A stretch of 64,000 nucleotides of DNA from Halobacteroides halobius DSM 5150 (GTDB lineage: Bacteria; Bacillota; Halanaerobiia; Halobacteroidales; Halobacteroidaceae), in the NCBI RefSeq assembly GCF_000328625.1, contig NC_019978.1:1364001-1428000 (forward strand), read 5' to 3'. The position numbers were made by a program, and so were the translations under genes. The notes under the pieces are model-generated. The model was not told the origin of the DNA, ran no database searches, and was given only the letters and a program-made list of their open reading frames with translations. Within the stretch, counting starts at the first letter, position 1; each line of letters opens with the position of its first letter. This document shows, piece after piece, positions 19,019-21,789 of this stretch.

Positions 19019-19720
19019 TTATTTCAAGTTAATTGTAGGAGATATTTTATTTTTTTCAAAGTAAGTAAAATATTTACCATTACCTAAATTAGCTAATGAT
19101 TTTAATTTTAACTGACTAACTTTATCTATTTTACCAATATGAACAATATGTGTCTTTATTTTAAACTTAGTCAGCTTTTTTATTACTTTACTAGGCATAA
19201 TCTTTCCTGTATCTTCACCATCTGTTACTAATATAATATGTTTTGATCCTTTATACTTGATTAAATTCTGTTTAGCTTTTAGTAAACTTGTTCTAATAGA
19301 TGATTCCCCTGTTGGATTTATTTTATTTATAAAATTTATAATTTCTTTTCTATTTTTAACCCCCAATGGAATTGTAAAAAACGATGGGGTATTATTTCTA
19401 TCTTTATTTCCAAAAACCCTAATCCCTAAATTTAAGTTTGTAGGCAAGCGATTAACTATACTATATAGTACATTCTTTGACGTAGTTATTTTATTAATAT
19501 TTTCTTTATTTTGTATACTTTTTGATACATCCCAAATTATTTCTACATTATCTTTATATTTAATAGGCAATTGTGGTTGATTTACTTTTATTTCCCCTCC
19601 AGAAATCTTACTATTATTAGCTATGGAAAAAGATAAAATATCTAATTGTTCTATCCCCATGATAAAAGATATTAAACATATAATTAAAATTATTAGAGTC
19701 ATATTTAATTGTGATTTCAT
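19019..19720 (-). CDS. Anchored von Willebrand factor A-domain protein
   Basis: A 233-residue protein with an N-terminal membrane anchor or signal (about residues 5-25) followed by one VWA domain. The metal-ion-dependent adhesion site is complete: DVSKS (DxSxS), the Thr/Ser in PTGESS, and VTDGED. The partner is unknown. It follows the nonfunctional-looking NhaC locus and precedes the UPF0182 gene on the same strand, 104 bases away. A GGAGGG ribosome site precedes the ATG. A repeated box (19779-19793) lies 59 bases upstream. Confidence 0.82.
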   Translation of the reverse strand: MKSQLNMTLIILIICLISFIMGIEQLDILSFSIANNSKISGGEIKVNQPQLPIKYKDNVEIIWDVSKSIQNKENINKITTSKNVLYSIVNRLPTNLNLGIRVFGNKDRNNTPSFFTIPLGVKNRKEIINFINKINPTGESSIRTSLLKAKQNLIKYKGSKHIILVTDGEDTGKIMPSKVIKKLTKFKIKTHIVHIGKIDKVSQLKLKSLANLGNGKYFTYFEKNKISPTINLK

Positions 19721-19823: not shown

Positions 19824-19845
19824 AGAGCAGGAATTATCCTGCTCT
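19824..19845 (-). terminator. Intrinsic terminator of the NhaC-family locus
   Basis: AGAGCAGGA and TCCTGCTCT pair around a 4-base loop; the minus strand continues with seven T. Confidence 0.92.
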
Positions 19846-19855
19846 AAACCAAAAG

Positions 19856-21130
19856 TTATGCGGTAATTTCTTTTGTATCTTCTATTGTTACTTCATCTCC
19901 TTCGACTTCTTTTCCGAATATATTAATAGCTATATAGCAAGCAATCATACCTAATAGCAATAATGGAAATACTACCCAGTAAGGTAGTCCAAATCCAGCT
20001 GGAATAAAGCCAAAGACAATAGAAATGATTCCTACTATAAGCGCATAAGGGATTTGTGTATTAACATGATCAATATGGTCGGCAGCTGAAGCTGTAGAAG
20101 ACATAATTGTAGTATCAGATATTGGACTACAGTGGTCTCCTAAAACACAACCAGTCAATACTGCTCCAATTGTTGGTAACATAGGTGCCCCAAATTGATA
20201 CGCCATTGGAATTGCTAAAGGCATAATAATTGCGTTAGTTCCCCAAGAAGTACCTGTAGCAAAAGCAATTATGCCCGGAATAACAAACATCATTGTTGGA
20301 AGTAAAAATGGTGGAATAATATCCTTAGTTAAAGCTACAATATAATTAGCTGTTCCTAGCTTTTCAATTACTGTTCCTAAGGACCAAGCTAGAATAAGAA
20401 TACCACAGGCTACAGCTAATGCTTTAGCTCCATCAATCCAACCTTCCATAATTTCTTCTACTTCTAAATTCCCTTTAAATAGTCCTAATATTCCTGCAAC
20501 TATTGTACCACTAAACGAAGCCCATAGAAGAACTACACTAGAATCAGCATTTCCAAATGCTTCTCTAAGTCCCACATCGGCTGCTAATCCACCACCATTA
20601 TACCATAAACCAACTAAAGAAACTATAATAACTGTAATAATAGGTAAAAAAGCATCATACCATTTCATACTATTATTTTCTTTATAATTCATCTCTGTTA
20701 GTTCTTCAGAAGCCATTGGTGTGGCCCCATCTGCTAATACCTTTCCAGTTTTTCTAGCCCTTTGCTCTGCTTGATGCATAGGACCTATATCTTTGCCAGT
20801 CCAAATAACTACTAAAATCATAAATAAAGCTAATATACTGTAAAATCGATACGGAATTGTTTTAAGGAAAACAGAATAAACATTTTGCTCAATGCCTAAC
20901 TTAGTAAAAGCATCCTGAATTAATCCCATTTCATAACCAACCCAAGTTGAAATAAATGCCATACTAGTTACAGGTGCGGCTGTACAATCAACAATATAAG
21001 ATAACTTTTCTCGGGATACCTTTAACTTATCTGTAATCGACCGCATTGTAGTTCCTACAATCAAACTATTAGCATAATCATCAAAGAAGATTAATACACC
21101 CATTATCCATGTAGCTAACTGTGCTTTTTT
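19856..21130 (-). pseudogene. NhaC-family Na+/H+ antiporter-type transporter, 5'-truncated
   Basis: The C-terminal three quarters of an NhaC-family transporter are intact. Recognisable stretches are IFFDDYANSLIVGTTMRS, SREKLSYIVDCTAAPVTSMA and ATGTSWGTNAIIMPLAIPM, then VLGDHCSPISDTTIMSS. About 130-150 N-terminal residues normal for the family are absent. Homology continues upstream of the first ATG (21103) through KAQLATWIMG, then stops at about 21126 where sequence matching a lysine riboswitch begins. No ribosome site precedes 21103. I read this as a deletion that fused the riboswitch to the middle of the gene. A shortened functional protein or an assembly error are the alternatives. NhaC-type genes under lysine riboswitches are thought to move lysine. 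Confidence 0.75.
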
Positions 21131-21240
21131 AACAGTTTTATACCTGTTAAGTATAAACCCAACAACAAATATTTTAATTTGTTGTTTCGGCAGTTAACCC
21201 TTTCCTTAGCTAAGTACTTTTGATAACTGCTCCTCTACCT
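21124..21240 (-). promoter_or_regulatory. Lysine riboswitch (L-box) aptamer, 3' part missing
   Basis: On the minus strand the conserved blocks appear in order: AGGTAGAGGAGC, AAAAGTA, GGAAAGGG, CTGCCGAA and GTTGGG, then AAAACTGTTAA near the P5 start. Helices can be drawn: P2 GCAGTTA (21230-21224) with TAACTGC (21196-21190); P3 AACAACAAAT (21186-21177) with ATTTGTTGTT (21170-21161); P4 TTTATAC (21157-21151) with GTATAAA (21143-21137). The P5 3' strand, a normal P1 closure and the expression platform are missing where coding sequence begins. The P2 and P3 loops are also unusually short. Confidence 0.75.
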
Positions 21241-21259
21241 TATTATTTTGTTTATATTT

Positions 21260-21288
21260 AGAATAACACACATTAGTAACTAAAGCAA
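21260..21288 (-). promoter_or_regulatory. Sigma-A promoter of the lysine riboswitch transcript
   Basis: TTGCTT (21288-21283), 17-bp spacer, TATTCT (21265-21260), about 12 bases before the predicted riboswitch start. Confidence 0.65.
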
Positions 21289-21312
21289 GAAAAAAATAAT
21301 TTCATCCTTATT

Positions 21313-21789
21313 TTAGTTTATATTTATCATCTTTAACTTATCTTCTGCTGGGGTTAAAAAGAAAACCTTCTTAATCTCCTTTTCTTTTAAAGATAGTTCA
21401 ACAATATCATAAGGATAGGTAATCATTTGGATTACAGCTTGATTTGGTGACGGTCCAACTGCTTTAACAGTTACAATTAAATTATCATCTTTTTTTCTAA
21501 TCTCTTTTATTTTAATTTGAAATCCTCCTGATGAACGCTCGCCTAATGAAGCATAAACAGCAATCCTATTATTTAATGATAAATTTTCAATACCTCTTAG
21601 CTTGTTGCGTAACTGACCAATGGAATTAGGCGTTATTAGTTTCATTTGCCCTTGTTTAATAGATTCACTACTTAACTTTCTACCCTCTAATTTTTCTGTG
21701 TTATTATAAATAACTTTTCCTTGCCTTAAATTACAACCACTAATTGCTAAGACTATTAATAGATTTAAAATTATTATTTTGTACTTCAT
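21313..21789 (-). CDS. Lipoprotein with PrcB-like C-terminal domain
   Basis: A 158-residue exported lipoprotein. The signal sequence ends in the lipobox LAISGC (Cys 19). The C-terminal half (about 75-150: NNRIAVYASLGERSSGGFQIKIKEI...) matches the PrcB_C/protease-complex-associated domain, in which the GERxSGG turn is typical. The domain is often found in secreted Firmicute proteins and its molecular role is unclear. A sigma-A promoter (21820-21848) and an upstream 15-bp box (21854-21868) precede it. Confidence 0.78.
   Translation of the reverse strand: MKYKIIILNLLIVLAISGCNLRQGKVIYNNTEKLEGRKLSSESIKQGQMKLITPNSIGQLRNKLRGIENLSLNNRIAVYASLGERSSGGFQIKIKEIRKKDDNLIVTVKAVGPSPNQAVIQMITYPYDIVELSLKEKEIKKVFFLTPAEDKLKMININ

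Follow-up and report, generated by a model that had tools for sequence, protein, structure and literature searches.

Probable recent deletion joining a lysine riboswitch to the interior of an NhaC-family transporter gene in Halobacteroides halobius

The lysW genes code for transporters of the NhaC superfamily (COG1757) and are preceded by a lysine riboswitch (L-box, RF00168) (PMC5584792). The same riboswitch class and the same kind of target gene are found together in the window, the 64,000-nucleotide stretch of the Halobacteroides halobius DSM 5150 chromosome analysed here, and intact pairs are present in relatives from the same family and order. In contrast to these pairs, the window locus is devoid of P5, the 3' strand of P1, the terminator and approximately the first 100 codons of the gene. 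The name lysW and lysine as the putative substrate are assigned here by analogy, from the L-box and the published description. A search of the literature returned this lysW background and no paper on the fused L-box/nhaC locus.

Deletions between short homologies, independent of RecA, are known from bacterial deletion mutants. The window locus resembles them in having a single junction at a 7-base sequence, a few hundred lost bases and no insertion. It differs in that its repeat has to be read from the relatives, by comparison with which the junction lies within sequence shared by both ends. We estimate at nearly nine chances in ten that a real and recent deletion of about 400 bp fused the L-box to codon ~101 of the transporter gene under its control, leaving a young pseudogene.

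Riboswitch and transporter gene at the fused locus

A cmscan search against Rfam gave an RF00168 match at 21245-21104 on the minus strand (84.2 bits, E 1.4e-20), reported as complete over model positions 1-182. When the sequence was trimmed at 21133, the match still scored 80.3 bits, ended at model position 145 of 182, on the CUG that follows P4, and was flagged as cut off at its 3' end. Model positions 146-182, corresponding to P5, J5-1 and the 3' strand of P1, add about 4 bits and are aligned to nhaC codons, so that these three elements contribute almost nothing to the RF00168 score. The 5' part of the L-box (21140..21245, minus strand) comprises the P1 5' strand, P2, P3 and P4, with the P4 pairing UUUAUAC/GUAUAAA intact and the conserved junction sequences GUAGAGG, GCCGAA and CUG in place. 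The five-way junction is not completed by P5, J5-1 and a closing P1, and five P5 pairs were marked as non-standard. Between 21133 and the coding sequence there is no expression platform, either as a terminator or as ribosome-site sequestration, and the scan listed none. These results call for caution in automatic annotation, as the "complete" 1-182 match in Rfam takes transporter codons (21104-21132 of the window) for P5 and P1.

A possible riboswitch promoter, TTGCTT and TATTCT separated by 17 nt with TGTG before the second hexamer, can be read from the sequence at approximately 21261..21289 (minus strand). The match is weak and does not appear in the consensus-scan listing, but the layout of the region resembles that of the same region in two relatives (L017 and L019); the intact promoter described in the first-pass annotation is thereby reduced to a weak candidate. 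The L-box before nhaC in Halanaerobacter jeridensis (L014, G001:C6:178541-178674) is unusually short (134 nt), and its P2 is apparently reduced, as in the window.

The truncated NhaC/MleN-like transporter gene of the lysW type (19856..21132, minus strand) corresponds to the full-length orthologue from about codon 103 onward, stop codon included, and belongs to the PF03553 family of NhaC/MleN-like Na+/H+ antiporters (E 2.3e-68). Its frame is open from 21193 to 19856 (445 amino acids) with neither stop nor frameshift, and the fusion is in frame with 30 more open codons upstream. The residues after the join read K-T-V-K-K-A-Q-L-A-T-W-I-M-G-V-L-I-F-F-D-D and continue unbroken to the stop at 19856. 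The first in-frame ATG, GTG or TTG is the ATG at 21103, from which a product of 415 amino acids would be made, and no Shine-Dalgarno site was found before it. The remnant is 70-74% identical to the closest full-length orthologues. It falls short of the full length of ~510-530 amino acids with N-terminal helices, residues 1-100 being absent. An intrinsic terminator with a 9-pair stem followed by T6 is located 3' of the gene (19824..19845, minus strand). A search of plasmids yielded distant relatives only (<60% identity), and the family profile, run against PDB sequences, found no more than marginal matches, to designed proteins. Four elements of the first-pass annotation were thereby borne out: a lysine riboswitch fused to an nhaC-family remnant, an L-box intact through P4, a first usable ATG at 21103 lacking a ribosome site, and an undamaged remainder of the gene.

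Comparison with relatives and the deletion junction

Orthologues are full length in all 29 relatives examined (L013-L041) and all carry the N-terminal ~100 codons. The closest ones come from nine genomes of the same family and order (L013-L021); the twenty further genomes are more distant. As stop-to-stop frames, the orthologues in the relatives measure 511-567 residues, and they start about 100 codons before the homology to the window begins, nearly all behind an AGGAGG-like site. Eighty further loci were drawn from a collection of 84,980 species, and in 79 of them the frame continues upstream for 95 codons or more, the remaining one being interrupted by a contig end. Full-length orthologues beginning naturally at the start point of the window, which would have spoken against a deletion, were thus sought and not found among the 29 relatives and the 80 further loci (one cut by its contig end).

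In most relatives an L-box lies a few hundred bases upstream of the transporter gene. H. jeridensis has a readily recognised terminator between aptamer and start codon, and one is present at this place in other relatives too. The order of genes (PrcB-like, L-box, nhaC, VWA, UPF0182) is identical in the window and in H. jeridensis (L071), so that synteny is exact around the gap. The conserved upstream neighbour is a PrcB_C-domain gene (21313..21789, minus strand; PF14343, E 1.2e-15) and the downstream one codes for a VWA-domain protein (19019..19720, minus strand; PF13768), both as in H. jeridensis. Relocation of the lost N-terminus was considered and rejected, since the only matches to this segment elsewhere in the genome lie within intact paralogues. 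Conserved gene order together with the lack of a displaced N-terminus argues for a simple internal deletion rather than a rearrangement. Compared with these relatives, the riboswitch 3' part, the expression platform and the start codon had rightly been described as skipped: P5, the 3' strand of P1, the terminator and the start are all absent from the window.

The CUG that follows P4 is separated from the gene's Lys-Thr codons by 396-452 bp in the seven relatives measured and by zero in the window. The equivalent of the join in H. jeridensis is Lys101-Ser102, which places the loss at codons 1-100; the 130-150 codons first proposed are therefore reduced to about 100. The junction itself, initially placed at 21120-21130, lies at 21139-21133. 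Its ambiguous bases AAAACTG (21133..21139, minus strand) fit both the riboswitch P4 3' strand with CUG and the nhaC Lys-Thr codons. In the relatives the Lys-Thr codons read AAAACTG (L013, L016), AAGACTG (L020) or AAGACT (L017, L018), and xxxACTG follows P4. Among random endpoint pairs in the relatives, with deletion lengths of 350-499 bp, only 0.03-0.16% share 7 bp or more.

From this sequence comparison, a short-homology deletion at AAAACTG is the probable event. Slippage or illegitimate recombination between AAAACTG in the L-box and AAAACTG or AAGACTG in the Lys-Thr codons of the gene would have produced a deletion of ~400 bp, fusing the aptamer at a point just beyond P4 with codon ~101 in the NhaC/MleN-like gene. 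This one event would have removed P5 and the P1 3' strand of the aptamer, along with the terminator and Shine-Dalgarno site, and the gene's first 100 codons, including its start.

Age of the deletion and competing explanations

Of 201 positions at which the nine near orthologues do not vary, 4 are changed in the window; the same treatment of intact orthologues gives 0-13 differences. In a simulation of neutral change, the joint probability was 0.39 (compatible) at 0.01 substitutions per site, 0.043 (marginal) at 0.02 and 0.001 (rejected) at 0.03. The deletion thus appears to be younger than about 0.02 substitutions per site, assuming neutrality. With four unique changes, no stops and these simulated values, it is young unless selection still acts on the remnant, and the lack of erosion agrees with the recent event suggested in the first-pass annotation. 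An old pseudogene was rejected on the same grounds, as decay is lacking.

An error of assembly or consensus, by which the locus would be intact in the organism and ~400 bp were dropped during assembly, has a small chance of being correct. A remnant without decay is what would be expected of a truly intact gene. However, the genome is a single 2,649,255-bp contig with 99.99% completeness, the join is of the kind known from short-homology deletions, and no repeat of greater length is seen at these two places in the relatives. Assemblers join on overlaps far longer than 7 bases, and the overlap at this junction is far below such a length.

Slightly less probable is a shortened carrier that still works and whose function is under selection, with a translation start located within the fused leader, such as CTG 21193 (immediately following AAGGAAAGGG) or ATG 21103. 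The in-frame fusion with its 30 open codons upstream, the freedom from stops and frameshifts and the normal conservation over the remaining frame are all in keeping with such a protein. The alignment of the NCBIfam Tet(35) model (369 positions) to the full-length protein begins at residue 163, a hint that the wider family may include shorter members. Against it, there is no in-frame ATG, GTG or TTG before 21103, this ATG is without a Shine-Dalgarno site vs the clear AGGAGG-like sites of the orthologues, five predicted helices and 13 nearly invariant residues are removed, and the form is unseen in any other genome examined. That such a carrier starts inside the old riboswitch and has been kept by selection, regulatory RNA having turned into coding sequence, is a shade more doubtful again. 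Least credible, with hardly any weight, is a hybrid RNA in which the nhaC codons GCUAC rebuild P1 and which would keep its response to lysine, with a direct action on the new start region: cmscan does align positions 146-182 to nhaC codons with a GUAG/CUAC pairing, but the gain is ~4 bits over 80, the RNA has neither P5 nor the longer P1 seen in relatives, other segments pair in the minimum-energy fold of the fusion, and the Ala-Thr codons giving GCUAC are conserved as coding sequence in intact orthologues, so that the P1 match was rejected as a selected feature and attributed to coincidence.

Predicted consequences and other outcomes at the L-box/transporter pair

The structure predicted for an intact orthologue (mean pLDDT 89, pTM 0.89) matches MleN (PDB 9a59) over residues 1-485 with a Z of 24.6 and an rmsd of 3.8 over 416 residues, and DASS/INDY transporters with a Z of about 20-23. 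In contrast to these folds, the window protein is without residues 1-100, which correspond to the N-terminal helices. The deletion takes predicted helices 5-22, 25-40, 45-62, 64-85 and 88-99, and the lost part contains 13 positions at least 90% conserved among 39 diverse sequences. As a result of the deletion, the lysine response of the switch, transcript attenuation and an efficient translation start would all be gone, and the remnant is probably a dead gene, a young pseudogene.

Lysine-controlled uptake through the NhaC/MleN-like carrier would be lost with it, while the other L-boxes of the genome remain. These are kept before dapB (followed by a dpaA-like gene) and before lysA, which indicates that lysine synthesis remains under control. 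The locus offers a clean, roughly datable snapshot of a riboswitch-controlled gene dying, in which the decision part of the switch and the start of the gene were removed together. It is ordinary gene loss, caught early.

In genome G003, an IS110-family transposase gene lies between the L-box and an intact nhaC/lysW-type gene (L046:1915-3177, L156:2409-3692). This insertion is a separate uncoupling of the L-box from the transporter gene. Three genomes lack a close nhaC/lysW orthologue: G010, of the same order, and two of the same family, G004 and G006, whose L-boxes are all found before dapB and lysA. The window deletion, the insertion in G003 and the absence of the orthologue indicate that the link between switch and carrier was broken more than once. 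The IS insertion and the loss of the whole unit among relatives are in keeping with a lesser need for imported lysine in these bacteria. At L009:1763-3170, a lysine riboswitch of the H. halobius genome precedes dapB and then a gene similar to that for dipicolinate synthase subunit A; with this arrangement, lysine may also control the dipicolinate branch.
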